Origin: Robertkochia marina
GTDB taxonomy: Bacteria; Bacteroidota; Bacteroidia; Flavobacteriales; Flavobacteriaceae
Direction of reading: 5' to 3'
Assembly: GCF_004799345.1 (NCBI RefSeq)
Contig: NZ_SSMC01000003.1
Span: 1-64,000 of the forward strand
DNA: 64,000 bases
Position 1 is the first letter of the stretch. Every line of letters begins with the position of its first letter. Both the position numbers and the translations under genes were made by a program. Positions 7,463 to 31,806 of the stretch are shown one piece after another. A model generated the notes under the pieces. The model did not search any database. It had not been told where the DNA came from and saw only the letters and a list, made by a program, of their open reading frames with translations.

Positions 7463-10400
7463 ATGAGAAAACTGCTCATTTGTTTTTTATTCTTTACGTT
7501 TTATATGGTTGAAGCGCAGAAGTTCCGGGTGGTGACCCTTCCCGTTTCCTATGATTATGAATTCAATGATGGGTTTGCAGATGGCAGTGGTACCTGTTCT
7601 TCATGCTGGACCTATGCTGACCGTACTCCCGGGTTGATCCTTTCAGAAACATTAAGTGAAATTTCAGACGGATACCTCACAGACCTGGAGGAGTTATCAG
7701 TCTCATTTTATGAGAAGGCATCTAAAGATCAAAACAAACCTTTTGAACAGATCGATTATTGTCAAAGCAACAGGTATAATGTCCGGGATGCTTTTACCGG
7801 AAAAATGAACTCCTACTGTGAGGCCAGGGTAAACAGGGAAGATATGATGCTCAGGAAAGAAGTTCCGTTGGTGTATGGAAATTATGCCTCCACCAATCTC
7901 TCCAACCCTGATCATAACGAAGCTTTGAGCTATATGAAGGTATGGCTTCTGCCTAATATCATACGGGAGAATACTGCATTGGGGTATTGCGAACAACTTT
8001 TTGAAGGAAAGGGTGTTACTATTAGTGATGGGCAGTGGGAGTTTCTTGGTGATGAATCATCTGAATGGATGCCTCTGGATGGACCTTTTAAAGATCGATA
8101 TCCTTTGGATGTTACCCTGGAGGAACTTGATATGAGTACTTCAACGGGGTTAAGATCTTTCCAATTTATCAAATTGAGATTTGTCATTAAGGCATCGGGT
8201 AGTGGTTCTTTTCATGGGTTTAATACCTCTAATGCATCCTCGGAGTTAGAAACAAAAGGTCAGGGTAAGGCTGTTTTAGGCCCATACAGCTTTACTGTTT
8301 ACCGCTGTTCTCCCGAATTGACACAATCTCCACAGGTTTTTGATGTTGCCTGTCATGGAGATAACTCAGGAAGCTTCAGGCTCTCGTTCAACAGAGAACT
8401 CTATGCTGATCATTCAGAGAAGATGATCGTGATGCTATATCGCCTTATAGGTGAAGAGTTTGAATTTTTGGAAAGTCAAACCCTAAGTGCTTTGGACCTT
8501 TCTGAGGCAACCTGGCAATGGCATTCGGTTTTATCTCCCGGGACGTACCGGGTAAGATGGATGACCAAGGAAGGAGATGATGATCTTTCAAGTATACCTG
8601 ATATAGCAAGAGAAAGTAATGTTTTTAAAATTGGTGAGCCAGAGCCATTGGTCATGCAACTCACTAAAAAAGATGTCCCATGCCGGGGAGGGGCAGAGGG
8701 TACGATAACAGTTGAATTAACAGGAGGGGTGTCGCCTTATACCTATTCTATAGATGGGGAGAAGTGGAAGGAAGCCAAAATGTTTGAAGGGCTAAAAACA
8801 GGTAGCTATTCCATAACGGGAAGAGATGCCAACGGCTGTGAGATTCAGGGAGAGGTCTTTTTAGAGGAGCCGGAAACAATTCCGAAAGCTGCTTTTTTAT
8901 TAACCTCTTCACCTACCGCCTTTGAGGCTGATGACGGATTTGTTAAGATGTTCGTCACAGGGGGTAGTGAGCCCTACTCGTACTTATGGACCAAAGATGG
9001 TGAACCGTTTTCGGAGGTTATGGATCTTAAGAACCTGGGACCTGGAGAATACCAATTTTTTGCGACTGATGCCCTGGGTTGTACTGCCGAAACCCCGGTT
9101 CTCAAACTGGAGCAACCGGATCCACTTAAGGTGTTATTCTTTGCAGAAAAGGATACGCTTTTTTGTGCGTATGATAAAACCGTACTTCGGGCTCAAGGCA
9201 CAGGGAGCGCCTCTGAAGTAGATAACAGCTATACCTACCTGTGGTCAGATGGAACTACAGATCCGGTGTTAACCAGTGTTGCCGCAGGAAATTACAGGGT
9301 TACCGTTTTCGATAAATACTGGAACAGTACCACTTCCGAATTCAAAATTACGGCACCGGCAGTCATTGAAACAAACACAGAGGTAACCCATGTAAAATGC
9401 TATGGGATGTCTGACGGGGAAATTACATTGAATATTAATGGGGGAACTCCCCCCTATAAGGTAACATGGAACCTGATGGAAGATTCCGGTTTTTACAGGG
9501 AAGGTCAGGATCTTGAGGGGTTGGAGCCTGGGAGATATTTCTATAGGGTAGTTGATGCGAATGATTGTGAGTACACCAATGCAAATACCCCGGTTGAAAT
9601 AATGGGCCCCAATAAAAAACTAGAAATTGAAAGTGTAAGTATTATCAATTTAAGTGAGCCTGGAGCTGATGACGGCAGTTTAATGATAGAGATAGCCGGA
9701 GGCACCCCCCCTTATAGTTATCAATGGGTCGGATCTGACGGCTTTTCAGCGGAGACTCCTTCTATTCATAACCTCAAGAAAGGAAAATATACGGTTATAG
9801 TAACGGATGCTAATGCCGGATCAGAACTGATCCCAGCTTGTAAAATACAGCAGGAATTTGAGGTAATTGCACCCGAACCTCTGCTTACAGAGCTCTCTGT
9901 AGTACAGCCATTACGTTGTCATGATTCTAATGATGGACTTCTGGAAGCCGGGATCACGGGTGGAGTGCTTCCATATACCATTTCCTGGTATGGGAAATTC
10001 TCAGAAGAAGTTCATGAAATAACGAATTCCTCTACTGTTTTGGAAGGGGTGTCCTCCGGAGTGTATTTTTTTGAGGTTATTGATGCAAACGGCATAATAG
10101 CTATCTCAAAGGAGGTAACCCTTGAAGTCCCGCCTCCACTAATGTTAGGAACAGCCAACATTACGCATGCCAGTTGCAGTAATGCCCGGGACGGTGAAAT
10201 TATGATGGAGATCACTGGGGGTGTTCCACCTTATTTTATTACCTGGGAAACAGGAGAGAATACAACACTGCATCAGGGACTGTCTCCGGGTGTATACCCC
10301 GTAAGCGTAGAAGATAGTAATGGTTGTATCATTACCGAGGTTTACCGGGTGCAAGGCGAAAATGAACTCGAGTTGATCGTAACCCGGGCAGATGATCCCT

Positions 10401-19836: not shown

Positions 19837-19991
19837 GATTACCTCCTCGGTGATGTCTACCGTTTCCGTGCTGCAAGAACAAGCCCCTACAAAGGCCTCG
19901 TCTTTGCTCTTGACTCTTGGCTCAACGAAGATTACCTCCTCGCTTCGCTCTTCGGTGATCTCCGCCATTCCAGTACTGCAAGAACAAACCC
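19837..19991. repeat. Imperfect duplication of about 60-90 bp
   Basis: The blocks ATTACCTCCTCGGTGAT...GCAAGAACAAGCCC (from 19839) and ATTACCTCCTCG...TCGGTGATCTCC...GCAAGAACAAACCC (from 19930) are diverged direct copies. On the minus strand they lie in one open frame that reads CSCST..ITEE twice and stops at 19822. No start or known domain supports a gene. Confidence 0.45.
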
Positions 19992-20105
19992 TGCCGGGCA
20001 CTATGTGCGCAGCGGTTTTGTGTTTTCCGGTTGTTCGCTGAAGTAAACTTCGCTCACCCCAGAAAACACAAAACCCCGCAGCATCCGCTGCGGGGTTTGT
20101 TCTTG
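19979..20105. terminator. Long inverted repeat and original tmRNA-side terminator
   Basis: CAAGAACAAACCC and GGTTTTGTGTTTTC in the left arm (19979-20027) pair with GAAAACACAAAACC and GGGTTTGTTCTTG in the right arm (20062-20105) across a 34-base loop. The right arm alone forms a strong CCCCGCAGC/GCTGCGGGG hairpin. Read on the minus strand this hairpin is followed by TTTTGTGTTTT, like a terminator. It lies about 4 bases beyond the partial tmRNA 3' end at 20109. It is probably the terminator that served ssrA before the island inserted. Confidence 0.6.
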
Positions 20106-20108
20106 ATC

Positions 20109-20123
20109 GTGGAGTCGGGGAGA
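20109..20123. other. attL: Left attachment site (partial tmRNA 3' end)
   Basis: GTGGAGTCGGGGAGA is identical to 31330-31344. After one mismatch, TCGA also matches. The rest of the tmRNA is absent here, as expected for the distal att copy. Confidence 0.75.
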
Positions 20124-20181
20124 GTCGACCGAAGTCTGTAATCGCAATGTTTACAAGGCTTCCGGGAGGGAGTCAATTTTA

Positions 20182-20208
20182 TGGTCCCGAATACCCACCT
20201 TTTTAACA
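20182..20208 (+). repeat. Island-end direct repeat, left copy
   Basis: TGGTCCCGAAT, then seven bases, then TTTTTAACA. The right copy is 31209-31235, the same length with three mismatches in the middle. It lies 58 bp inside the left att core, so it is a candidate recombinase arm site. Confidence 0.6.
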
Positions 20209-20274
20209 TAGTTTAACTTCTTTAAGGTGTAGTTGAAAACATTTTGAGGGGATTTACCCCCCAAATTATAATTA

Positions 20275-20350
20275 GTAACAGGCTCCCCGCCCTGGTCAGG
20301 GCGGGGTAGATCAGGGTGTAACCCTGAGACGGGGTGGGTTGTTGCCATGA
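20275..20350. repeat. REP-like repeat, family A, inverted copy
   Basis: GGCTCCCCGCCCTGGTCAGG, GCGGGG, a CAGGGT/ACCCTG hairpin, and GACGGGGTGGGTTGTTG. It shares both ends with the copies at 265-415 and 59686-59745 but has a different inner hairpin. Confidence 0.7.
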
Positions 20351-20403
20351 GAATCCTTTCCGCCCATTCCATGCATGTTATTTGTAATAAAGGCCAGCGC
20401 GCC

Positions 20404-20478
20404 TTCTGGCCCCCCTGGCTACCGCCAGGCAGGTTCGCTAAAAAGGTCCACCGGACCTTTTCTAAACGCTTGGTCCCC
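20404..20478. repeat. Dispersed palindromic repeat, family C, copy 3
   Basis: GGCTACCGCCAGGCAGG, TTCGCTAAAA, an AAAAGGTCCACCGGACCTTTT hairpin and CGCTTGGTCCCC. It lies inside the island although the family also occurs outside it. The rest of 20124-20737 shows no supported gene. Confidence 0.65.
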
Positions 20479-20737
20479 CATAATCTTCCATAACTAACCT
20501 ATGAAATGTTGTGGTAAAACTGTAATAAAAGGTCTTTAAGTGATGGATAACATGCAACATGCTAGTTCATCAGTAATAACAGGGGTTAAGGGGAATTATG
20601 GATAAAAGCAACGAGCTTCAGCGCGTTGCCCTCTTGCTATTCCCCTTTATTAATTTTACTAACCATTATTTAAGTATGCCTTTCAGCTTATCAAACTATA
20701 GGAGAGAAGGTATTGAATCGTAATTATAAACAGTACA

Positions 20738-20839
20738 ATGGATAAAATCTCAATTAAAGAATTTAATCTATATCTTAGTAAGACTAAAATTATCGATACC
20801 CCTTCCTCTCCCTCCCCCAAGATTTATCTAATTAATTAG
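20738..20839 (+). CDS. Possible 33-codon small ORF
   Basis: ATG at 20738 to TAG at 20839 encodes a short Lys/Ser/Ile-rich peptide beginning MDKISIKEFNLYLSK. No clear ribosome binding site and no recognised family. It lies just before the helicase gene and could be a leader or chance. Confidence 0.2.
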   Translation: MDKISIKEFNLYLSKTKIIDTPSSPSPKIYLIN

Positions 20840-20879
20840 TAGCGAATTAATACTAATTCTAGGATTTAAATTTGTTTTG

Positions 20880-23441
20880 ATGTATAGTACTGAAAAATTA
20901 AAGGCTGAATTAAATAATGAACAATTTCAAGCTGTAACGTCGACAGAGGGGTACGTGAGAGTTATTGCGGGAGCAGGCTCGGGAAAAACAAGAGCTCTTA
21001 CCTCTCGATATGCATATATCATTGGTGCTTTAGGCATTAGCTCATCAAATATTCTTTGTGTCACTTTTACTAATAAGGCCGCAAGGGAGATGCGAATTCG
21101 GGTGAAAAAGCTAATAGGGGGTAATTCGGATTTAGGATATATAACCACCTATCATGGATTTTGTGTCAGAATTCTCCGGGAGGACATAAATAAAATAAGT
21201 TATCCGAAAAATTTTATCATAATGGATGTTGAGGACCAAAAAACGGTTCTTCGCGATATATACCGTGAACTGGGAATTACTTCCAAGGAATTGACCTTTA
21301 AACAAGTTTTACGGTTTATAAGTAGACAGAAAACACAATTGCATTACCTCGAGTACATCTTAGATTCTAAGAAAAATAAATCAAAAGATAAGATCGATAA
21401 AATTTTTATAAGGTACTTAGAGAAACAACAGAGAAATTTTGCCTTGGATTTTGATGATCTTATAAATTTCACTCTTTATATACTAGCTAAGTATCCAGAT
21501 ACACTTCTAAAATGGCAAAAGAGACTTCATTATATTTTAGTTGACGAAACTCAGGACAGTTCAGACAAGCAATTTAAATTAGTTGAATTGTTATCTAGGT
21601 TTCATAAAAACCTTTTTGTTGTTGGAGATCCAGATCAAACCATTTATGAATGGCGTGGTGCTAAACCTGAAATACTTGTAAATTTTGACAAGACCTATCC
21701 TGATAGCAAAACGATAGTAATGAATCAGAACTATCGGTCAACACCAAACATATTAAGTCTTGGAAATCACATTATAAAAAACAATAAGATACGTGTCGCA
21801 AAGGACATGTTTACCCAAAATCCGGAAGGTGTTGAAGTGATTCATTTTCATGCGCAAAATGATAATGAAGAAGGCTTATGGGTAGCAACCGAAATTAAAA
21901 AACTCGTATACGAGGATAATTGCAAATATTCAGATTTCGCAATACTATACAGAGCAAACTATATCTCTAGAAATATTGAGCAATCCTTTATCAGGGAAAA
22001 CATCCCATACTCTGTCTTTGGTGGGATTAGATTTTTTGAGAGGAAGGAAATAAAAGATGTATTAGCCTATTTACGCTTAATTGAATTTGAAGATGATTTT
22101 TCTTTTTTGAGAGTTGTAAATGTTCCAAGTCGAGGTTTAGGTAAACGATTTATTCAAAATGTCGCTGAAATTGCTGAAAAGGATAATGTTTCATTGTATC
22201 AAGCATTAAAAACTAATGTTTCAAGGAAAGGATTAAATAGAAAAGGTGCAATTGAATTTATTGAATTGATTGAGAGTAAAAGAAAAATAAAAGATTCAAT
22301 TTCAGTTTCGGATTTAATAAAGGAAATAATGGATGAAAGTGGTTTATCAGGCTACTATAGACTTGATGGTGACACGGACAGGTTGGAAAATGTGAAGGAG
22401 TTACAAAATTCAATAATAACTCAAGAAAATAATACTGAAGAGAATTTCACCTTAACAGAGTACCTCCAGGAAATTGCTTTGTACACCGATATGGATATTG
22501 ATGATAATAGAAATGACAGGGTAAAACTAATGACCATTCATACATCCAAAGGATTAGAGTTTCCGCATGTTTTTTTATGTGGATTTACAGAGGGGATTTT
22601 ACCAAGTGCAATGTCCATAAAGGAAAGAGGCAAGAAAGCTATAGAAGAAGAGCGTCGCTTGACATATGTTGCAATAACCAGAGCAGAAAAAGCCTTTTAC
22701 ATGACTGATTCAGAAGGATTTAATTTTAGTACTGGCTCCAATAAATATCCTTCTCGCTTTTTATTTGAAATAAGTGATAATTTTTTTGTTAGAAAAGGAA
22801 AATTAAGTCAAGATATAATAGATGAAGCAAAAAAAAAGTTTCAGTTAGAATTAAATGGGCTACCCAAGCCTAAAAGTTTTAAGCTGAAAGATTTGGTACA
22901 TCACCCAATTTGGGGCTATGGAAAAGTTATAGAGATAAATTTAGATAGAGAAGAATATTTAATCGATTTTGAAAAAACCGGAAAGACCAAACCTATTAAT
23001 TTCTACTTTCGAGGGCTTTCGTCGGCAAAAGACGCATTAAATCATTCTCAAATCACAAAAGAAAAAGGGAAAGAAAATTCTACATCAGTGGGTGGGATTG
23101 AGTCTTCCGATAAAAGGGTAAAGGATTTGGGCGAAAAAAGTATTGAGGTAGTACCAGATACCCAGGATTTAGTTAAGGTAAAGGATCAAAAAGAGGAGGA
23201 ATATAACGAGGAACAACTTGAACGTTACAAAGAAATTTTAAGCAATTTGAATCAGAAGGCAATAGAGGATGATTGGATTCAAGATAAAAATTCACACACC
23301 GATTTATCGAAAGAAGGGAATAGTACAAAAGGTTTATCAACTGCCAAGGATTATGAAAATGACCTACCAGGAATTAAGAGTAAAACTAAAGGAAATTTCT
23401 GGTCAATTATAACAAGTATGTTTAGGTCAATCTTTTGTTAA
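20880..23441 (+). CDS. UvrD/PcrA-like superfamily 1 DNA helicase (island-borne)
   Basis: The ATG at 20880 is preferred over a TTG at 20877. The 853-aa protein has all SF1A motifs: Q-motif 'LNNEQFQAV', Walker A 'AGAGSGKT' (about residues 31-38), Walker B 'ILVDETQDSSD', motif III 'VVGDPDQTIYEWRGA', motif IV 'NYRSTPNI', motif V 'VKLMTIHTSKGLEF' and motif VI 'RRLTYVAITRAEK'. A PcrA-type Tudor-like C-terminal domain ('VHHPIWGYGKVIEINLDREEYLIDF') and a charged linker follow. It should be a 3'-5' ATP-dependent helicase or translocase. It is AT-rich compared with the flanks and sits in the island, so it is a mobile paralogue, not the housekeeping gene. UvrD proteins occur in defence systems such as Gabija, but no GajA-type nuclease is present. 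Confidence 0.92.
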   Translation: MYSTEKLKAELNNEQFQAVTSTEGYVRVIAGAGSGKTRALTSRYAYIIGALGISSSNILCVTFTNKAAREMRIRVKKLIGGNSDLGYITTYHGFCVRILREDINKISYPKNFIIMDVEDQKTVLRDIYRELGITSKELTFKQVLRFISRQKTQLHYLEYILDSKKNKSKDKIDKIFIRYLEKQQRNFALDFDDLINFTLYILAKYPDTLLKWQKRLHYILVDETQDSSDKQFKLVELLSRFHKNLFVVGDPDQTIYEWRGAKPEILVNFDKTYPDSKTIVMNQNYRSTPNILSLGNHIIKNNKIRVAKDMFTQNPEGVEVIHFHAQNDNEEGLWVATEIKKLVYEDNCKYSDFAILYRANYISRNIEQSFIRENIPYSVFGGIRFFERKEIKDVLAYLRLIEFEDDFSFLRVVNVPSRGLGKRFIQNVAEIAEKDNVSLYQALKTNVSRKGLNRKGAIEFIELIESKRKIKDSISVSDLIKEIMDESGLSGYYRLDGDTDRLENVKELQNSIITQENNTEENFTLTEYLQEIALYTDMDIDDNRNDRVKLMTIHTSKGLEFPHVFLCGFTEGILPSAMSIKERGKKAIEEERRLTYVAITRAEKAFYMTDSEGFNFSTGSNKYPSRFLFEISDNFFVRKGKLSQDIIDEAKKKFQLELNGLPKPKSFKLKDLVHHPIWGYGKVIEINLDREEYLIDFEKTGKTKPINFYFRGLSSAKDALNHSQITKEKGKENSTSVGGIESSDKRVKDLGEKSIEVVPDTQDLVKVKDQKEEEYNEEQLERYKEILSNLNQKAIEDDWIQDKNSHTDLSKEGNSTKGLSTAKDYENDLPGIKSKTKGNFWSIITSMFRSIFC

Positions 23442-23449
23442 TTATTGTA

Positions 23450-24490
23450 TTATAAACTTTTTCTTAAGACAATTTCAAAACTGTTGATACCATAATCAAT
23501 ACCGCGTATATTTTCGATTTCATCTCCAAAATGAATATTGAATTCACCATGATTCAACTGGATCATTTGGTTTATCCTCCATAATCCTATACCGTCACCA
23601 CTTTTACCTAACTTTTTAGCTAATCGACTTGAAAACCCTTCGTTCAATATACTTTCTCTTTCTTCAATAGGGACATAAAGACTGGTCATATTCATTTTAA
23701 TCGCTACGGTATCTTTATCCTCTTTAAAATCAACCGTTACTATAGAGTTGGGGAGCGTGTATTTTGTTGAATTCTCAATTAAATGGTAAAATGCTACCTG
23801 CATTGTTTCATAATCAATTTGGGTTTTTCCTTCGAACTCTCTAACATCTACATATATTTCATTATTAGAAAAATCAGAAAAAAAGGTGTGTAAAACATTT
23901 AAGAACACCTTTCTTACGGGTAGTGATTTTATTTCCAGGTCTTTTGAGTCTAATCTTTCTATTTTCTTATATATAGAGAACTCTGATTTCATATGGATGT
24001 TATTTTTAGCAATCCTTAAAAATAACATTGCCGCTTTATCGGGGTCAGATATAATTTCTCTTTTAATGAACTCTAACTGTTTTTTCCAATTACTAGATAG
24101 AGTTTCTTGCGGTACGAGATCATATATTTCCTGAATATTGTATGCGTTAATTGAGGTTAAGTTATGTATCAGGCGATTTACTTTTGTTTGTTCAGTTTTT
24201 TTGATGTTTTCTGTAATCTCATTTACTGGAAGTTCAATATCTCCCATGGCATAGGACAAGGCATCAAGCTTATTTTTGAATAGTGCGGTAGTTTTTGATT
24301 GATTACAGCAAAGAAAAATATTTGATTTCTTAGTTTGTTTGAAACCTTGCTTTCTGCGATCATTGTATACCGGACATGGATTAACACTTTTGTAAATATC
24401 ATTACAATTTGCCATGCATACCCGACACTCGTCTAATAGATTCTGGGATGTAATGGATTTATATGGAACATTTATAGAAAAGTGTTTCAT
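23450..24490 (-). CDS. Cytosolic histidine kinase with N-terminal cysteine cluster
   Basis: The 346-aa protein has no membrane segment. The first 65 residues hold six cysteines (C22, C25, C29, C39, C61, C62; C-x2-C-x3-C-x9-C plus CC), suggesting a zinc or iron-sulfur site. H109 in 'RLIHNLTSIN' is a possible phospho-accepting His. The C-terminal GHKL ATPase domain shows an N-box 'HLIENSTKYT' and a G-box 'GKSGDGIGLWRINQMI', followed by a normal final strand. It starts 12 bp after the receiver-domain gene, so the two form an operon. It may sense redox or metal and phosphorylate the receiver partner, which is inference. The classic F-box is not clear. No named defence system with this exact pair is known to me. 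Confidence 0.8.
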   Translation of the reverse strand: MKHFSINVPYKSITSQNLLDECRVCMANCNDIYKSVNPCPVYNDRRKQGFKQTKKSNIFLCCNQSKTTALFKNKLDALSYAMGDIELPVNEITENIKKTEQTKVNRLIHNLTSINAYNIQEIYDLVPQETLSSNWKKQLEFIKREIISDPDKAAMLFLRIAKNNIHMKSEFSIYKKIERLDSKDLEIKSLPVRKVFLNVLHTFFSDFSNNEIYVDVREFEGKTQIDYETMQVAFYHLIENSTKYTLPNSIVTVDFKEDKDTVAIKMNMTSLYVPIEERESILNEGFSSRLAKKLGKSGDGIGLWRINQMIQLNHGEFNIHFGDEIENIRGIDYGINSFEIVLRKSL

Positions 24491-24502
24491 TTGAGAAATG
24501 AA

Positions 24503-25057
24503 TTAAATTAAGCTTTCTATGAGAGTTATAAATTCATAAGGTTCAGCATTTTTTGCAAGACAATCATCAACTTCCCTTAACGCTTTATGAAAACGGTCAC
24601 CTTTGTTTTCAGCTGAATATAAAACAATCTTCTTATCTGGATGTCTATCCTTTAAAGCTGAAGCAAGGCCAAGTCCTTGATCCTTAAACATAGAGGTGCC
24701 AACTCCGTTTATGTCTACAAAAATTATATGTGCATCTCTAACCTTATAATCATCTAAATTGGTTATATCCTTTACTCCTTTAGTATTAACCCAACCTGAT
24801 CTTTTTAATATTGAAATGATCTTATAGTCGGAATACTGGTCATCAATAAACAAAATTTTAATCGCACCTTTTTCAGGTGATTTTTGTTTCTGCGGATGAT
24901 TAGGTTTATCAATAGCGGAAGGGCTAATATTAATATTATTAATAATTCTATTGGCGAAATTAGGTTTAATCGATTTCTTTAAAAAAGGAAAAGTTCCAAC
25001 TAAAAGTGTTGCAATAATTCCTCCAATCCACTCAATGTTTTCCAATATATATTCCAT
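24503..25057 (-). CDS. Receiver-domain protein with predicted N-terminal membrane anchor
   Basis: Residues 8-27 form one hydrophobic segment ('IEWIGGIIATLLVGTFPFL'), followed by a basic stretch and a linker with many Pro and Lys. Residues 66-184 form a response-regulator receiver: acidic pair D72-D73, phospho-acceptor D115 in 'IIFVDINGVG', S148 in 'VLYSAEN' and K169 in 'CLAKNAEP'. No output domain follows. The arrangement is unusual because the receiver, not the kinase, is tied to the membrane. The gene is first in an operon with the cysteine-rich kinase (12-bp gap). The output could be a protein contact at the membrane. Promoter candidate on the minus strand near 25092-25099 is only a weak match. 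Confidence 0.8.
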   Translation of the reverse strand: MEYILENIEWIGGIIATLLVGTFPFLKKSIKPNFANRIINNINISPSAIDKPNHPQKQKSPEKGAIKILFIDDQYSDYKIISILKRSGWVNTKGVKDITNLDDYKVRDAHIIFVDINGVGTSMFKDQGLGLASALKDRHPDKKIVLYSAENKGDRFHKALREVDDCLAKNAEPYEFITLIESLI

Positions 25058-25220
25058 AAAGAGATAATTAGTTTTACGCTAAAGGATTACTAATATAGGA
25101 ACAGTCTAAGGTTCTGTAGGTGTAATGGAATAGTGAATTATCAACAATTGTTGTGAATAATCAATAAAATTCTTACAATAAATGCTTTTAACTTCGTAAC
25201 AACTATCTGCTTTTGGATAA

Positions 25221-25318
25221 GCTCGTTCCCTGATCCTGGAGGCGGATCGGGTGAACAAGCCATTCAAATTCTTTTCTTCGAATGGAAAAATTTCAAAACG
25301 TTGTAAACGTTTAAAAAT
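25221..25318 (+). repeat. 97-bp hairpin repeat in the island, copy 1
   Basis: GCTCGTTCCCTGATCCTGGA starts a stem-loop closed by GAACAAGC. CATTCAAAT, TTCGAATG and AACGTTGTAAACGTTTAAAA follow. The second copy, at 29683-29779, is direct and nearly identical. Between 25058 and 25508 there is no supported gene. Confidence 0.8.
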
Positions 25319-25431
25319 GGAATTGTTGGGACCTGTGTAATACAATTAGAATAAATATTAGGCAGGTTTTCTGATTAATATCTCATTCTAGGTTTCTACT
25401 CAAATAAATAATAAATTTAAGAATTCAACCG

Positions 25432-25500
25432 GGCTTTCCATCGCTGCCGGGGACAACTATAGCATTCCCCCGCCACGAGCCTTAGCCTAATCGGTAATAC
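25432..25500. repeat. GC-rich palindromic boundary before the thioredoxin gene
   Basis: A GC-rich block in AT-rich DNA contains GCCGGGGA and TTCCCCCG as inverted arms around an AT-rich loop. It ends 8 bp before the gene start. Similar GC-rich palindromes precede the next two genes. Confidence 0.45.
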
Positions 25501-25508
25501 CTCAAAAA

Positions 25509-26942
25509 ATGAACTGCAAGTATCTAACGATATGTTTTATTGCCTTCCTTATAATTTCCTGTAGTCCAGAAAAAAATAAAGATTTCACAATTCTCAAAGG
25601 AAGTATTTCAGGAGGCTTAGTTGAAACGGTTTATTTAGAAAAGAAGGGATACAGCAATAAGTTCAAGAAAGTTGATTTGTCTGTATCAAATAACCAAACA
25701 TTCCAGGAGAACCTGGAAATAACGAGTGGGTATTATTCACTGAAAATTGGAAATAAAAACATTAATATTTATCTGGAACCTAATTTCGATTTAACGCTAC
25801 ATATTGATCTTGAAAAAAATATAATCACATTCGACGGTATAGGTGAAATCGAAAATGACTACTTAAAAAAGAAGGATTCTCTGCAAAAGGAAACTTTTTA
25901 CTTCGACAATTACAAGTACCATGCAAAACTATCTGAAAATCGTTTCCTTCAAATAAATGATTCTATTAGAAACTTATACATAGACTTGCTTCAAAAAAGC
26001 ATTTCCAACAATAAAAAATTTGAAGAATTGGAACGAAAATCAATTCTTTTGGACAATGTCTATAATTTGATGGGATTTGAAATTAGTAAAAGATTATTGA
26101 CTGAACATAAGGACTTCAAGGTATCTGGTTCATTTCCTCATCCCGAGGAAACATTGGATTTTAATGACGAGAGCTTTTTAGATATACCCTTATTCATCCC
26201 ATTAATAGCAAATAATCCGTATTACTTTTTGAAAAATAAAATTAATCTGGATACATCTACAGAGAAGTTGAAATGCTTGAATTGTGATTTATACCTTGAG
26301 CATTTGAACAATTTGGAATCATTTCTCAACAATAAAAAAATAATAAATGAAACGTCATTCCTAATATCAAAATGGTGGTTAGGAAAGGCACAGAATCTTG
26401 ATGGTTTTTACGAGTCTTTTAAAGCGATCAATTCAAACCAAGAATATTTAGAATTTGTCCAAAATATTTACAATAATTTGAATACTAAACGACTTGAATC
26501 TTTTCTTTCGCATGAATTTTTAAAGGACACAAAAGGGGAGCTAATTTCGCTGAATGAATTTAAGGGTAAAATTCTTTACCTGGACTTTTGGTCTTCCTCA
26601 TGTGCTCCCTGCATTAGAGAGTTTACTTATCTAAACCAATTGTCGGTCAACAATCAAGGAGAGAAATTTGAAGTAATTGGCATAAATATTTGGGATACAG
26701 AGGAGCGCTGGAAAAAAACAATCCGAACTCATAATTTGAAAGGAATTCAGTTATCCTTGGCTAACGATCCAAAATTTCTTGAAAAGGTAGGTATTAGCAG
26801 TATTCCCAGATATATGGTTATAGATGATGCTGGTAACATTGTTGACTATAATGCAGAGCCACCTTCGGACTTTAATGCAAAAAAACAAATCAAAGATTTA
26901 ATGAATAATCAAGAACGAGCGATAGCCAACAAGGAGTTATAA
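25509..26942 (+). CDS. Thioredoxin-like (TlpA/AhpC-TSA family) lipoprotein
   Basis: A lipoprotein signal ends in the lipobox 'LIISC', with the likely acylated Cys at residue 18. Residues 25-110 resemble the DUF4369-type N-terminal domain often found in Bacteroidetes TlpA proteins. A helical middle follows. The C-terminal thioredoxin domain (from about 340) has 'GKILYLDFWSSSCAPCIREF', with redox cysteines C365 and C368, and the cis-Pro region 'GISSIPRYMVID'. It should reduce or isomerise disulfides in the periplasm. It is AT-rich and part of the island, and lies inside the pair of 97-bp repeats. A chromosomal relative with WCGPC is at 54542-56437. Confidence 0.88.
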   Translation: MNCKYLTICFIAFLIISCSPEKNKDFTILKGSISGGLVETVYLEKKGYSNKFKKVDLSVSNNQTFQENLEITSGYYSLKIGNKNINIYLEPNFDLTLHIDLEKNIITFDGIGEIENDYLKKKDSLQKETFYFDNYKYHAKLSENRFLQINDSIRNLYIDLLQKSISNNKKFEELERKSILLDNVYNLMGFEISKRLLTEHKDFKVSGSFPHPEETLDFNDESFLDIPLFIPLIANNPYYFLKNKINLDTSTEKLKCLNCDLYLEHLNNLESFLNNKKIINETSFLISKWWLGKAQNLDGFYESFKAINSNQEYLEFVQNIYNNLNTKRLESFLSHEFLKDTKGELISLNEFKGKILYLDFWSSSCAPCIREFTYLNQLSVNNQGEKFEVIGINIWDTEERWKKTIRTHNLKGIQLSLANDPKFLEKVGISSIPRYMVIDDAGNIVDYNAEPPSDFNAKKQIKDLMNNQERAIANKEL

Positions 26943-26988
26943 ATCACAATATTCAACTTACAATATTTAGACTATTTCCTTATATTGA

Positions 26989-27118
26989 ACTCCAAGAACA
27001 AAAATGAAGCGTCACGTTTCCAACGTGGCTCTGAGCCTCGCCAGAGGTAAAGGCCAACGCCAGGCTCAGATCCACATACCACAAGGCCTCATAGCCTGCC
27101 GTTGCTAACAATTTAAAA
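26989..27118. repeat. GC-rich imperfect palindrome between island genes
   Basis: CACGTTTCCAACGTG is followed by GTGG, TCTGAGCCT and, after about 20 bases, AGGCTCAGA and CCAC, a long stem in otherwise AT-rich DNA. It ends with CCGTTGCTAACAA shortly before the next ATG. The layout resembles an integron attC-like site but does not match the consensus. Confidence 0.5.
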
Positions 27119-27131
27119 CGTACGACCGAGA

Positions 27132-28541
27132 ATGATAAAATGGTTAAGGAAAAAACTCGGAATTGATACAATCGACAAAAATATTGTCGAAAGCAATTCT
27201 ATGACTCAAAACCAACTAATTGAGATTTATAACTCAATAGAAAATCTAAAACCAAAAAAAAAAGAAACCGAAATTATTGAGATAGCAGATAGTTTTAATT
27301 TGAAAAATGATATTTCAGATTTAGGTTTCAAGTTAAACAATAATATTTGTATCGATAAAAGTTGGTCCTTAATAACTACTCAAAACAACAAATTAAATTT
27401 TCTCTCTCAAATTGCTGGAACTTCATCTATTGGAAGTTCAGTCGCTTATACAGCAAATGGATTATATACCGCAACCGCGAATACAAGAAGTTTAATGACT
27501 TACGGAAATGGCTCGTTGAGTTCAATAACAATGAACGGTTCTCAATTCGGAAGTCACGCAGGTTTTGTTAGTGCAAATCCTACTGTTTTTACACCAATTT
27601 TAGCTGTCCAATTTGCTGCAATGCTAACTGGTCAATATTATTTTAATGGCTTAACAAAGCAATTAGAATCAATCAAAAAAGGAATTGATGAACTAATAAA
27701 CATCTATCATAATGAAAGATTGGCAAAATTGAGATATATAAACACTAAAATAAACGAATTAAACAATCGGAATTTTTTCACTACCGAAGATTATGTTACC
27801 GTCGATAGATTAAAATATGACTTGTCAATTATTCGATTTGAATACTTACTGTCTGCTCAAAAAGAAATCATAAACACTTTTGAGAGGAAAAAAGGAGATG
27901 AAAAAAAGGAAGAAATAATTGACACAATATCAGAAGATAGTTCTAAGCTTGAGAGAAGGCTTATTACAACCAAAAGGGAAGTCAAAATAATGTCATCCCG
28001 TTTATCTAACTTAATAAAAGGAGTTGATGATAAAATAAAGCCATTGACTGAAAACTCCCTTAAAGAAATCAATCAGATTGTAAGAAAAATTAATGATAGC
28101 AAGTTCTTTAAGTATTCGGAAATTGCCTTGAAATCCGAACAATTATACCAGCTTATTAAAATTATAGAACTAAAAATAAATCTATCTAATAAAAAGCCAA
28201 GCCCTAACAGGATTGGTAAAATTGAAGAGATATATAATTCCATTATAGAGTTTAATTTTGAAGATAGTATTTATGACGAAATGGATCAGCTTAAATCTGA
28301 TTTAAAAGATCATATATTAACTCAAATTATAACTCATCGAAATAATAGTAAATTAACAAGAAGTGAGATTGACAAAAGATCCTCAGTAATATTAGAAGAA
28401 TTCTCTATTCTTGAAGAGAACTTGAGAGATAAGGAATTAATATTTGAAAACTTAGAAAATATAAGAAATGAATTTGAAAAACCACTTCAAATTCTAATTG
28501 ATAATAGAACAAATCCAACAAAAATATATACAAAACTCTAG
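27132..28541 (+). CDS. Unknown island protein: Gly/Ala/Ser hydrophobic segment plus long helices
   Basis: I recognise no family. Residues 1-75 are charged and helical. Residues about 91-175 are rich in Gly, Ala, Ser and Thr with hydrophobic stretches ('QIAGTSSIGSSVAYTANG', 'TPILAVQFAAMLTGQYYF'). Residues 176-469 are strongly helical and charged, with coiled-coil character. There is no signal peptide. A central hydrophobic hairpin within long helices resembles the layout of alpha-helical membrane-active proteins, which is a weak analogy only. Very AT-rich. It is bracketed by GC-rich palindromes, like the HEPN gene that follows, so each may have been acquired as a separate unit. Confidence 0.7.
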   Translation: MIKWLRKKLGIDTIDKNIVESNSMTQNQLIEIYNSIENLKPKKKETEIIEIADSFNLKNDISDLGFKLNNNICIDKSWSLITTQNNKLNFLSQIAGTSSIGSSVAYTANGLYTATANTRSLMTYGNGSLSSITMNGSQFGSHAGFVSANPTVFTPILAVQFAAMLTGQYYFNGLTKQLESIKKGIDELINIYHNERLAKLRYINTKINELNNRNFFTTEDYVTVDRLKYDLSIIRFEYLLSAQKEIINTFERKKGDEKKEEIIDTISEDSSKLERRLITTKREVKIMSSRLSNLIKGVDDKIKPLTENSLKEINQIVRKINDSKFFKYSEIALKSEQLYQLIKIIELKINLSNKKPSPNRIGKIEEIYNSIIEFNFEDSIYDEMDQLKSDLKDHILTQIITHRNNSKLTRSEIDKRSSVILEEFSILEENLRDKELIFENLENIRNEFEKPLQILIDNRTNPTKIYTKL

Positions 28542-28542
28542 C

Positions 28543-28722
28543 CAACTTCGGCTATACCCAAGCGCTATCATTCTTACAAGTAGCGACCATATTACTTATC
28601 TTCAAATTCAGAACAAACTAAATGCTACGTGACTCGCTGTCCTGGCCTCGGCCAATAGAAAAGGCCCAAAGGTCGGCCAGGCCAGCCAACCACACTGGGG
28701 ATAACCCGACCGTTAGCTGCAA
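28543..28722. repeat. GC-rich palindrome and GTTAGCTGC tag before the HEPN gene
   Basis: TAGCC/GGCTA forms a small hairpin over the preceding stop. Further on, CCTGGCC and GGCCAGG (about 28640-28671) form a GC-rich stem. The block ends in CCGTTAGCTGC, and the exact complement GCAGCTAAC occurs right after the HEPN gene at 29334. Confidence 0.55.
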
Positions 28723-28724
28723 TA

Positions 28725-29342
28725 ATGAAAACTCAAATGACATATACCCTAAACTTATTTTCAGATAACATCAAATCAATACTTACGATTTATGAAGACT
28801 CAAATAAGATTAGAGAAGAAAAAAGAGATCAGTCTTGGGAAAAGATAATGGAGCAATCAAAATTCAGTCAAGAAGAATTTGATGAATTTAATCTTTATGA
28901 CTTCCATTTTGAATGGATTTTATTGCACTCACTATTTATTTCTTCCTACTCCTATTTTGAAAATTTCATGCTTTCATGTGCAAAACAGATTCAGAAAAAA
29001 TTAAACTCCAAGATTGAAATTAAAGATATAAAAGGCAATGGAGATATAGACTCTTACCGGAAGTACTTGAACCTTATTGGCGAAATTGAATTTGCAGATC
29101 CGACAAACGAGGGCTGGAAAAAATTAATGGAATTCAAAGCTATTAGAAATTCAATCATTCATAAGTACGGTGAGATTAATCAAAATCTTTCAATCATTCG
29201 GGAGCATAATATTTATTTTGGACCAAGTCAAAAAATGATTCGAATAAACAATAAAAGCTTTCTCGAAGATTTCAGTCAGTCATCAATTGAATATATGTCG
29301 AATCTAACAAAAGAAATAAATAAGAAATATTACTGCAGCTAA
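28725..29342 (+). CDS. HEPN-domain protein (probable RNase, RiboL-PSP-like)
   Basis: The 205-aa all-helical protein has 'HSLFISSYSYFENFM' in the first long helix and 'FKAIRNSIIHKYGEI' in the last, giving the HEPN R-x4-H motif (R141, H146). HEPN proteins with this motif are usually metal-independent endoribonucleases, often toxins or abortive-infection effectors. No antitoxin such as an MNT-type nucleotidyltransferase sits next to it, although a short one could be missed. Flanked by the inverted tags GTTAGCTGC and GCAGCTAAC, so it looks like a mobile single-gene unit. The RNase role is inferred from family knowledge. Confidence 0.78.
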   Translation: MKTQMTYTLNLFSDNIKSILTIYEDSNKIREEKRDQSWEKIMEQSKFSQEEFDEFNLYDFHFEWILLHSLFISSYSYFENFMLSCAKQIQKKLNSKIEIKDIKGNGDIDSYRKYLNLIGEIEFADPTNEGWKKLMEFKAIRNSIIHKYGEINQNLSIIREHNIYFGPSQKMIRINNKSFLEDFSQSSIEYMSNLTKEINKKYYCS

Positions 29343-29347
29343 CAACA

Positions 29348-29515
29348 ATGGTGTATAAACCATAAATGAAACTTCCTTCAGCTCGTTTAAAGGCCCTCAA
29401 ACCAGTACGTGTAAACGAGCTATTTTTATCACATTACTTTATTAGGCAGTTCCCAAACAACCCAAACATGAAAGCACCTTAAAAGTACTGCTCTCAACCA
29501 TGGCATATAAACCAT
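29348..29515. repeat. Palindrome-rich gap after the HEPN gene
   Basis: ATGGTGTATAAACCAT (29348-29363) and ATGGCATATAAACCAT (29500-29515) are two 16-base near-palindromes. Between them AGCTCGTTTA and TAAACGAGCT (about 29382-29420) form a perfect 10-bp stem followed by ATTTTT, a likely terminator. Confidence 0.55.
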
Positions 29516-29682
29516 TACGATCTCATTCTGAAATTCCTTGTTCTATTAACTTTTCAAGAATGCAAACCTTAAATTTAGATTTTTGAATATGACTTATTTG
29601 ATTTCAGGATTAACTCAGGTTTTTTGACGAACCTGACGGGGTAAGTTTATAGGTCAAAAATTTAAACTGGAAGAAATTTTTG

Positions 29683-29779
29683 GCTCGTTCCCTGATCCTG
29701 GAGACGGATCTGGTGAACGAGCCATTCAAATTTTTAGCTTCGAATGAAAAGACGTAAAAACGTTGTAAACGTTTAAAAA
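29683..29779 (+). repeat. 97-bp hairpin repeat in the island, copy 2
   Basis: Here the outer stem GCTCGTTC/GAACGAGC is perfect and the inner stem GATCC/GGATC is kept. It ends with AACGTTGTAAACGTTTAAAA. Direct orientation relative to the copy at 25221. The two enclose three genes. Confidence 0.8.
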
Positions 29780-29815
29780 CGGATATTTAATTTTCTTTTC
29801 AAGGTGTAGCGAAGT

Positions 29816-31057
29816 TTAACTACTCACCTGATTCTCTTTGGTCTTCTTAACCAACTTTGATTTCAAAACACCCATATCCTCGCTGATCTTCCGGTCTAAT
29901 ACCTGGGCATAGATCTGGGTGGTTCTCAGATCCCGGTGTCCGAGCATTTTACTCACCGTTTCAATAGGTACTCCATTGGTTAGGGTTACCGTGGTGGCAA
30001 AAGTATGCCTGGCCAGGTGGGTGGTGAGTCGTTTTTTAATACCGCATAGATCGGCGATCTCTTTTAAATAGGCGTTGGCTTTCTGGTTGGTGAGTACAGG
30101 GATCAGACAGTTCCCATTTTCCACCTCAGGATGGTCTTGGTACTTATCCATGATGCTGAGGGCAGGAGGGAGGAGGGGGATCCTGCTTTTGGATTCCGTC
30201 TTGGTTCGATTGATCCGAATCCAGAGATCTCCATCGATTCCGGTAACTACATGATCCCGGGTAAGCTTTTTGATGTCGGCATAGGCAAGGCCGGTATAAC
30301 AACAAAACACAAACATATCCCGCACCTGGGCAATCCTGGGGATGGTTATCTCTTTATTGATCAAGGCATCGAGTTCACTTTGGGTAAGGTATTCTCTTTC
30401 TTTCCATTGGTAGGAGATCTTATAACCGTAAAACGGATCTTTGGTGATCCATTCATTGGCTACCGCGATCCGAATGATCTTTTTGAAGTTGTTCACATAC
30501 TTCATGCTGGTATTGTGGTTACAGTTGCGCCGGGTCTTTAAGAAGTATTCAAAGCGTTGAATAAAAGCCCGGTCTACTTCATTCACAGGCATATCCTGCC
30601 AGCCGTATTCCTCCTCTATGAATTGGGATAAATGGTCTTTGGTCGTATTGTACCGTATCACGGTGGCAGGTGCATAGCCCTTACCTGAAAGCTTCTTTAA
30701 TTGCTCATTGTGTTCCCTGAAGATCTCCAGGATCATCTTTGAAGGCTTTGCTCTGTTCTGCACCATCTTGCGAAGTTGGTGGATGGTAAAGGGCTTGCCG
30801 TTATCCTGAAGCTGCTGGAAGTATTTGTTGGTCTGGTAAATAAGCTGTTCCAGGTGGGCGTTGATCTGCAGGTTTTCCTTCTGGGTTCCTGTTACCCGTT
30901 CATTCCTGCTGCTCCATAGATTAGGGTTCACCTTTCTTTGGGTGCTGATTTCGATACGTTGTCCGTTCAGCGTTATTCGCTGATAAATGCGACATTTCCC
31001 TTGTTTGTCCAGCTTGTTTTTGCGGATAATGAAGCGGATGGAATAGGTGTTTTTCAT
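29816..31057 (-). CDS. Tyrosine-type site-specific integrase of the island
   Basis: The 413-aa protein has the layout of Bacteroidetes integrases. An N-terminal arm-binding region ('YSIRFIIRKNKLDKQGKCRIY') is followed by a SAM-like core-binding domain (about 110-200, ending near 'NHNTSMKYVNNFKKII'). The catalytic domain has R in 'CCYTGLAYADIKKL', H-x-x-R in 'LTTHLARHTFATTV', the 'MLGHRDLRTT' motif and the nucleophile Tyr in 'TTQIYAQV'. All key residues are present, so it should be active. It lies about 270 bp from the tmRNA 3' end and reads away from it. Its base composition is closer to the chromosome than the rest of the cargo. Confidence 0.93.
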   Translation of the reverse strand: MKNTYSIRFIIRKNKLDKQGKCRIYQRITLNGQRIEISTQRKVNPNLWSSRNERVTGTQKENLQINAHLEQLIYQTNKYFQQLQDNGKPFTIHQLRKMVQNRAKPSKMILEIFREHNEQLKKLSGKGYAPATVIRYNTTKDHLSQFIEEEYGWQDMPVNEVDRAFIQRFEYFLKTRRNCNHNTSMKYVNNFKKIIRIAVANEWITKDPFYGYKISYQWKEREYLTQSELDALINKEITIPRIAQVRDMFVFCCYTGLAYADIKKLTRDHVVTGIDGDLWIRINRTKTESKSRIPLLPPALSIMDKYQDHPEVENGNCLIPVLTNQKANAYLKEIADLCGIKKRLTTHLARHTFATTVTLTNGVPIETVSKMLGHRDLRTTQIYAQVLDRKISEDMGVLKSKLVKKTKENQVSS

Positions 31058-31208
31058 ACCCTTAAATTTAAGGTGCCAAAATTGGTCACCAGAATTCCTA
31101 TTTAAGGTACAAAAACTCTGGAAATCAAATGTTAAAGAAAATCGTGACAGCCCCTATGAATACAGGTGGTTTGAAAAAGCTGGTGACCAAATTTCAAGTT
31201 TTAAAAAT

Positions 31209-31235
31209 TGGTCCCGAATTACCCCCTTTTTAACA
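31209..31235 (+). repeat. Island-end direct repeat, right copy
   Basis: TGGTCCCGAAT, seven bases, TTTTTAACA. It matches 20182-20208 at 24 of 27 positions and lies 94 bp inside the right att core. Confidence 0.6.
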
Positions 31236-31270
31236 GTATTTAAAGGGTTTTAATTGAATGTAAGAAAAAT

Positions 31271-31307
31271 AAAAAACCCCGTAAACACTGGTGGTTTAAG
31301 GGGTTTT
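31271..31307 (-). terminator. Terminator now serving the tmRNA gene
   Basis: On the minus strand AACCCC and GGGGTT plus TTAAAC/GTTTA arms form a stem followed by TTTTTTA. It lies on the island side of the att core, so it was brought in by the island. Confidence 0.7.
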
Positions 31308-31330
31308 GGTGAATTTTAAAGTCCACCCAG

Positions 31331-31727
31331 TGGAGTCGGGGAGATTCGAACTCCCGTCCAAACAAGCAATTAAAATGCTTTCTACATGCTTAGTTACCGT
31401 TTGGTTTTCGACGCAAGGCTGACCGGAAACTGCCTACCTTACGCTTAGCTTCTTAAGATTTAAGATCGTGACGAAGCTACACGACCTCTATGTTGACTTT
31501 TATGGTGCCTCAAAACGGGACGCCATCAACAAGGGCTTCCCAGAGACATCTCGCCTCCCCGCCTTGCGGGGACGTGGCCGAAATCCTACTATAAATTCAG
31601 ATTAGGCAGCAAGAGCGTAGTTATTCTCGCCATTTAAAAAGGTTGAAATATGAGATTTAAGAGCTGTATCCCAGCGCTCTGCATGCTTACACTCCAATTA
31701 GACTCGCTGTCAAAACCAGTCGACCCC
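31331..31727 (-). ncRNA. ssrA: Transfer-messenger RNA (tmRNA)
   Basis: The 5' end GGGGTCGACTGGTTTTGACA and the 3' end with the T-arm GTTCGAATC and CGACTCCA form the tRNA-like domain; the acceptor strands GGGGTCG and CGACTCC pair. The tag reading frame at 31602-31631 encodes GENNYALAA and a stop, a typical Bacteroidetes tag. CCA is not encoded. tmRNA rescues stalled ribosomes. The 3' end is the island attachment site, and the gene remains intact because the same bases are restored by the att core. The end positions follow from pairing of the acceptor stem. Confidence 0.95.
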
Positions 31728-31806
31728 AATATTTTTCAAAGAACCTCCCTTTTCTCTTTCGGGAAAAGCAGGATAGCAAAACTACAATTTTTTCTGATAC
31801 TGCTAC

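Follow-up and report, generated by a model that had tools for sequence, protein, structure and literature searches.

A genomic island at the 3′ end of the tmRNA gene of Robertkochia marina and the putative arm-type sites of its tyrosine integrase

Introduction

How can a mobile element enter an RNA gene and leave that gene whole? The question is raised by a 64,000-nucleotide stretch of the Robertkochia marina genome (contig NZ_SSMC01000003.1, positions 1 to 64,000; hereafter the window), in which 11.2 kb of largely AT-rich DNA ends exactly where the transfer-messenger RNA (tmRNA) gene, ssrA, ends. An earlier note on this DNA had proposed a small defence or signalling island inserted at the 3′ end of ssrA. 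We are highly confident that the segment is a non-conjugative genomic island, placed at this site by its own tyrosine integrase. Its insertion site and borders, the corresponding empty site and a sister island can be read directly from the genomes compared; from its sequence, the island may also still be active. It is an ordinary kind of island with candidate defence cargo, and its main interest lies in a pair of integrases, its own and that of the sister island, whose putative arm sites are switched.

The integration site and its empty counterparts

The features that define the island, in window positions, are as follows.

20109..20123, no strand assigned: far-end attachment core, 15 bp, extended 19/20 (repeat search)
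31330..31344, no strand assigned: near-end attachment core, the final 15 nt of ssrA (exact repeat match and ARAGORN)
31330..31727, minus strand: intact tmRNA gene, ssrA (ARAGORN; 31328-31727 in Rfam)
29816..31057, minus strand: tyrosine integrase, 413 amino acids (aa), with IntCTnDOT-type domains (Pfam)

The core, GTGGAGTCGGGGAGA, is present exactly at 20109-20123 and 31330-31344 and at no other site in the window, even with up to two mismatches allowed. By chance 0.07 matches would be expected at that tolerance, and two matches were found in none of 100 shuffled sequences. When the repeat is extended, 19 of 20 bases are identical between the copies. ARAGORN finds a single tmRNA in the window, with the tag GENNYALAA, and one of the two cores completes it, as in islands integrated at tRNA or tmRNA genes. 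The integrase gene belongs to the island and lies at its ssrA-side end, its start codon about 270 bp from ssrA. The direct repeat, the intact tmRNA and the neighbouring integrase described in the earlier note are thus all present. Its description of the cargo as AT-rich holds as well, and the integrase gene itself is not AT-rich: GC content over 21-30 kb is 0.30-0.35, against 0.445 in the window outside the island, and the six main open reading frames (ORFs) other than the integrase lie at 0.28-0.33, the integrase gene at 0.459.

A search for relatives gave four other genomes of the genus (G001, G002, G003 and G004). In G001 (locus L044), window positions 19955-20128 match 8469-8641 and positions 31330-31790 match 8622-9083, the two matches overlapping at the core only. 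The sequence left of 20109 here passes through one core directly into ssrA, and an ABC-F gene, 93% identical, is found some 1.3 kb away from ssrA. The left match in G004 (L049) covers about 200 bp at 75% identity (window 19929-20128 to 9347-9141, with ssrA from 9160). G002 has ssrA without island or integrase, next to a flank unlike the window's. Each of these three genomes has one exact core in the 16-19 kb around ssrA, and no tblastn match to any of the seven island proteins was found there. The tally is therefore two empty sites with a matched flank, one island-free site with another flank and one sister island, in G003. The comparison supports the island, whose left flank joins an uninterrupted ssrA end in G001 and, along a match of about 200 bp, in G004; it does not bear out the idea, considered in the earlier note, of a stable part of the core genome, since three of the four congeners lack the island at ssrA and the fourth carries different cargo there.

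Short intergenic repeats lie left of the island at 19843-19991, and kindred stretches adjoin ssrA in G001 and G004. The window itself begins with the end of a 5S rRNA gene (1-75).

The crossover can be placed inside 15-22 bp, because the left copies match ssrA over 15 bp in the window and over 22 bp in G003; beyond the 15 common bases, the left copy reads GTCGACC in the window and TTCGAAC in G003. A crossover within this common sequence, which covers the T-arm and acceptor end of the tmRNA, would keep the gene whole, as the element provides the last bases of ssrA. Just past these same last bases it would also bring an apparent new terminator. Two hairpins bear on this point.

20071..20098, minus strand: native ssrA terminator hairpin, apparently displaced to beyond the island's far end (like the hairpin after ssrA in G001 and G004)
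31271..31308, minus strand: putative element-borne ssrA terminator (hairpin and U-run by folding; conserved in G003)

In G001 and G004, where the site is empty, ssrA is immediately followed by a strong hairpin. A hairpin similar to the element-borne one was recognised by eye in G344. The element seems to replace the ssrA terminator with its own, the native one being pushed to the far side. The locus shows an island capturing the end of a tmRNA gene, apparently including its terminator, with the gene left whole.

A sister island at the same site

In G003, ssrA (C63:115436-115835) is followed at the same spacing by an integrase gene (C63:116106-117344) whose product is 89% identical to the window's. 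The far core of this sister island is on a separate contig, C54, along with the ABC-F gene (96% identical). Aligned over 274 columns, the right ends of the two islands agree in 236 and differ in 38. Besides the integrase, the islands share the right end and, over about 110 bp, the left end; no homologue of the six non-integrase island proteins was found in the two G003 contig ends, where the ORFs encode, by reading of the translations and among other products, a MutS-like ATPase and small membrane- or secreted-protein-like products. Integration module and cargo are separable: the same module occupies the same site with other genes in a sister species. With empty, occupied and differently loaded sites in one genus, this is a comparatively well-proven tmRNA island.

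The cargo is divided by a repeat.

25221..25321, plus strand: 101-nt repeat, copy 1, between the PDC-M43 gene pair and the following genes (88% identical to copy 2)
29683..29783, plus strand: 101-nt repeat, copy 2, at the cargo/integrase border (same border in G003)

These direct repeats, with a strong hairpin, bracket a 4.4-kb block of three genes (TlpA-like, 469-aa and 205-aa proteins, below), and the single copy in G003 also stands at the cargo/integrase border. This layout suggests that the island grew by blocks. The repeat is not a widespread cassette border: among 31 genomes it was found only in these two islands, apart from one weak match in G024.

Cargo genes

Between the far core and the integrase gene lie six main ORFs.

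20880..23441, plus strand: divergent PcrA/UvrD-like helicase, 853 aa (Pfam UvrD-helicase, UvrD_C)
23450..24490, minus strand: PDC-M43B, histidine-kinase-like, 346 aa (PADLOC PDLC04647, E 4.6e-129)
24503..25057, minus strand: PDC-M43A, receiver-domain protein, 184 aa (PADLOC PDLC04646, E 8.1e-67)
25509..26942, plus strand: TlpA/redoxin-type protein, 477 aa, with a lipoprotein-like start (Pfam Redoxin, AhpC-TSA; N-terminus read)
27132..28541, plus strand: orphan protein, 469 aa (no relatives in the searches made)
28725..29342, plus strand: weakly HepT-like protein, 205 aa (Pfam HepT-like, E 0.0056, below cut-off)

'PDC' stands for phage defence candidate (PMC11514479, cited, like the papers below, from excerpts). 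The two genes are adjacent here and in five relatives, namely G618, G629, G596 and plasmids of Shewanella baltica and Escherichia coli.

Invariant in six aligned sequences are H109, N240, G298, G300 and G302 of M43B and D72, D73, D115, S148 and K169 of M43A, which we take to be the phosphoacceptor and catalytic positions of two-component systems. Because of this fit, the pair is taken to be a small phosphorelay with a receiver lacking an output domain, and is a candidate for phage defence by that route. M43A has an N-terminal hydrophobic segment, seen by eye; as it is missing from the G629 and G596 proteins, membrane anchoring would not be general. In G618 (L102 429-11692), the pair lies near type I restriction-like ORFs and an integrase (ORF starts read by eye).

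M43 is not common in the group: matches at E<1e-70 occur in 4 of 395 phylum-sample genomes, the window's own included, and the other 333 genomes matching the M43 query do so, among the matches listed, in the ATPase half only. M43B has no match in the other 294 of the 295 class-sample genomes at an E limit of 1e-15, and a single-protein scan of genome_contigs found no M43. The string PDC-M43 does not occur in the literature searched, which covers few subscription journals.

The helicase starts at ATG 20880 (the ORF lister uses TTG 20877) and is 36-41% identical to its best other match across 31 genomes, with 40% for the second copy in its own genome (G000:C2:801931). These best matches are presumably housekeeping PcrA, the C2:801931 copy being this genome's own. 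Two assignments to known defence systems were rejected: the helicase matches models of Gabija GajB, but the remaining island proteins give no match to Gabija models, and its best PADLOC match is RTasHel, yet no reverse transcriptase that could make it a DRT partner is found among the seven ORFs. A fixed helicase-M43 system was likewise set aside, since the stretches compared from five relatives showed no such helicase next to the pair.

The TlpA-like protein matched no defence model in PADLOC. The 469-aa protein is unmatched in the rest of the class sample (294 of its 295 genomes; E limit 1e-4), as it is in plasmids, phages, genome_contigs and viral_contigs, and the 205-aa protein has three weak plasmid matches. 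Single-sequence structure models of these two proteins (mean pLDDT 39.3 and 47.3, respectively) were too poor for a fold search.

Neither phage structural nor conjugation genes were found among the seven main ORFs (Pfam, NCBIfam and PHROGs; smaller ORFs were not searched). The sole phage-structural trace is a sub-threshold Terminase_2 match in M43B (E 0.082); the named-function PHROGs in the island are helicase, kinase and integrase only, without prophage structural or packaging functions, and no relaxase or mating-pair gene that would mark a conjugative or mobilizable element was found in this set. The lack of such genes noted earlier is hence borne out, that one trace apart. The label 'small defence or signalling island' holds in part: the PDC-M43A/B pair is a defence candidate of two-component build, and most other cargo matches no assigned function.

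The integrase and its relatives

The integrase contains the domains Arm-DNA-bind_5 (PF17293), Phage_int_SAM_5 (PF13102) and Phage_integrase (PF00589), all above cut-off. With these arm-binding, core-binding and catalytic domains it is of the IntCTnDOT type by domain content.

Related integrases also sit mostly beside RNA genes. A first scan of 36 loci found 6 beside tmRNA, 21 beside tRNA and 9 beside neither. With 87 more loci from the best matches listed, and counting RNA genes within 600 bp, 109 of 123 loci adjoin a tRNA or tmRNA gene. The nearest gene is tRNA-Ser in 43, tmRNA in 25, Lys in 10, Asp in 9, Pro in 6, Leu in 4, Glu and Phe in 3 each, Arg and Tyr in 2 each, and Met and Ala in 1 each; none was found for 14. 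Among 18 genomes with tmRNA elements, a second core was found on the same contig in 6 (27-168 kb off) and on another contig in 2. Among the loci examined, four further such integrases come from the window's genome, where they adjoin tRNA-Ser, tRNA-Leu and two tRNA-Pro genes.

Weighing the explanations

Several observations count against the account given so far. The far core diverges from ssrA past 15 bp, a loss of identity that may be the sign of a settled island; none of the seven ORFs searched was recognised as excisionase-like; and an exact pattern search found no far core in 10 of the 18 genomes with tmRNA elements. The G003 island is split by a contig end, and the cargo comparison covers two contig ends. 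On its cargo side, moreover, 112 bp (L046 14217-14327) match window 25378-25488 at 77%. A very different history would have the region present in the ancestor of the genus and lost from the relatives through a clean deletion, by recombination between the two 15-bp repeats. The single core left behind would look just like an empty site, and with only five genomes of the genus compared the direction of change is itself a deduction. Against it stand the low-GC cargo between host-like flanks, the different genes that accompany the same integrase at this site in G003, the three of four congeners without the region, and the 469-aa protein and M43B, unmatched in the class sample at the limits given above; we regard this history as very improbable.

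Two further possibilities, both unlikely, concern what kind of island this is. It could be a prophage or integrative conjugative element that decay has reduced to its ends, its integrase and part of its cargo; six related tmRNA elements do span 27-168 kb, and the helicase matches a phage helicase family. The island ORFs, however, appear whole, the seven main ones include no structural, packaging, relaxase or mating-pair protein bar the Terminase_2 trace, and the ORF list of the sister island (on which no family search was run) contains no such genes. Slightly less improbable is a dedicated defence island, in which the helicase, the M43 pair and the 469-aa and 205-aa proteins form one system. 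The PADLOC matches of the M43 pair, its place beside type I restriction-like ORFs and an integrase in G618 (starts read, no family search) and the weak HepT-likeness of the 205-aa protein favour this idea. The M43 pair, on the other hand, has no such helicase beside it by blastp in three relatives (one stretch ends 254 bp past the pair) or in the incomplete annotation tables of two, the 101-nt repeat divides the M43 block from the following genes, and the TlpA-like protein is without a defence-model match. A non-conjugative island brought in by its own integrase remains our reading of the locus.

Putative arm-type sites and a possible recognition code

Comparison of the ends of the window and G003 islands points to four integrase arm-type sites.

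20183..20192, minus strand: putative arm-type site, far end, ATTCGGGACC on the minus strand (window/G003 end comparison)
31084..31098, no strand assigned: putative arm-type site 1, near end (GGTCAC in the window, ACTCAC in G003)
31180..31189, no strand assigned: putative arm-type site 2, near end (window/G003 end comparison)
31210..31219, no strand assigned: putative arm-type site 3, near end (window/G003 end comparison)

The integrase probably binds arm-type sites in both ends to build its recombination complex; the predicted sites lie about 74 bp inside the far core and about 115-246 bp from the near core. All four matched sites (within 31058-31344 and 20109-20220; L045 and L046 in G003) switch together, from GGTC[A/C]C in the window to ACTC[A/C]C in G003, which on the other strand reads GACC against GAGT. 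Many of the 38 differing right-end columns are in or beside arm sites, and some are elsewhere. Of the 46 differences between the two integrases over 413 residues, 20 fall in the 95-residue arm domain (Fisher p 0.0012).

The pattern extends to related loci. Measured from the integrase start, exact TTCGGT sites in the 123 loci cluster at about 80-110 bp on one strand and at about 110-140 bp on the opposite strand. Among the first 63 loci, GGT+NNNN heptamers are identical in 234 of 2395 within-locus pairs, as opposed to 4089 of 146850 between-locus pairs; 2000 permutations of the within-locus identity gave a mean of 69 and a maximum of 105. Arm codes were called for 83 of the 123 loci (40 were dropped), 71 remaining after near-identical loci were removed. 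Across these 71, arm domains of same-code pairs are more alike than the other domains predict, with an excess of 0.035 (permutation sd 0.0042; 0/2000). By domain, the same-code excess has a z of 8-9 for the arm, 4.2 for the catalytic and 0.1 for the core-binding domain; since the catalytic domain is also in excess, shared descent is not fully removed from the signal. Of the best code-associated columns, 13 of the top 20 fall in residues 1-100, and three of the top eight (321, 299, 260) fall outside the arm domain.

The arm-domain effect persists (p 0.0011) in 38 disjoint nearest pairs, 21 with the same code and 17 with different codes, one of the latter being the window and G003, whose codes were set by hand from aligned ends. 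The top residues here are 72, 46, 12, 75, 122 and 10, with 122 outside the arm domain; no column is significant under strict correction for 413 columns, nor is residue 26.

In seven other elements, whose far ends were located solely from the core pattern, a site of the same orientation lies 72-74 bp away from the core. Six of these sites differ from TTCGGT by at most one base, and the seventh has the expected variable half; this survey leaves out the G986 far core, which is on another contig. Far and near codes agree in six of nine elements, namely G815, G948, G764, G774, G003 and the window island. The two codes differ in G276, G867 and G934, and the ends of the G934 element are on separate contigs. 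The discordant elements between two tmRNA cores are G867:C6:122312-157630 and G276:C9:23991-62246; the idea that they are tandem arrays is not supported, no second integrase or inner core being found in either. The code does not track the target gene, tmRNA elements using GAC, GAG, GTC and TAC. Nor is it supported that co-resident elements avoid one another's code: of 21 pairs from the same genome for which codes were called, 4 have a code in common, where 11.8% would be expected (fetched loci only).

On balance, we lean slightly towards the view that this Bacteroidota integrase family reads element-specific arm sites, made up of TTCGGT and about four variable bases, which co-vary with the N-terminal arm domain. 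On the same view, the variable bases tend to match within an element and to differ between elements, and residues ~10-12 are among the best candidates for reading them. If true, this would be a readable protein-DNA recognition code across many natural elements, not tied to the RNA gene entered. The window and G003 islands form a natural before-and-after pair for the specificity of the integrase arm domain, and so a ready test of arm-domain change in DNA specificity.

Comparison with known systems

No survey of comparable size, and no description of the shared-half and variable-half form, was found in the literature searched, with its few subscription journals. The IntCTnDOT subgroup (PMC8138268) has the arm-binding, core-binding and catalytic domains of the window integrase. 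Its first catalytic arginine is weakly conserved and, by reading, missing from the window integrase (TGLAYAD). Members named there include the conjugative CTnDOT and the mobilizable NBU1, whereas no transfer gene was recognised in the window island.

In Dehalococcoides, ssrA-specific genomic islands have an integration module distinct from their cargo (PMC3146451); they belong to another phylum and carry other cargo, and their module comprises several integration-associated genes as opposed to the one integrase recognised here. Comparable to the window island is the 10K island of Riemerella anatipestifer, of 10 kb and with an IntN1-like tyrosine integrase adjoining an RNA gene, from which a cloned fragment with integrase and attP integrated and excised (PMC6764341). 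It lies at tRNA-Arg with a 53-bp repeat, unlike the tmRNA site of the window. Cluster K mycobacteriophages (PMC3203893) integrate at tmRNA, as the window island does; they are complete temperate phages, described from a handful of elements without a family-wide survey. Among close relatives, their putative arm-type sites vary together with residues 17 and 19 of the integrase, and a putative terminator lies between the core and an arm site. Given these three precedents, as far as the excerpts go, both this kind of island and the principle of arm-site change are already known.

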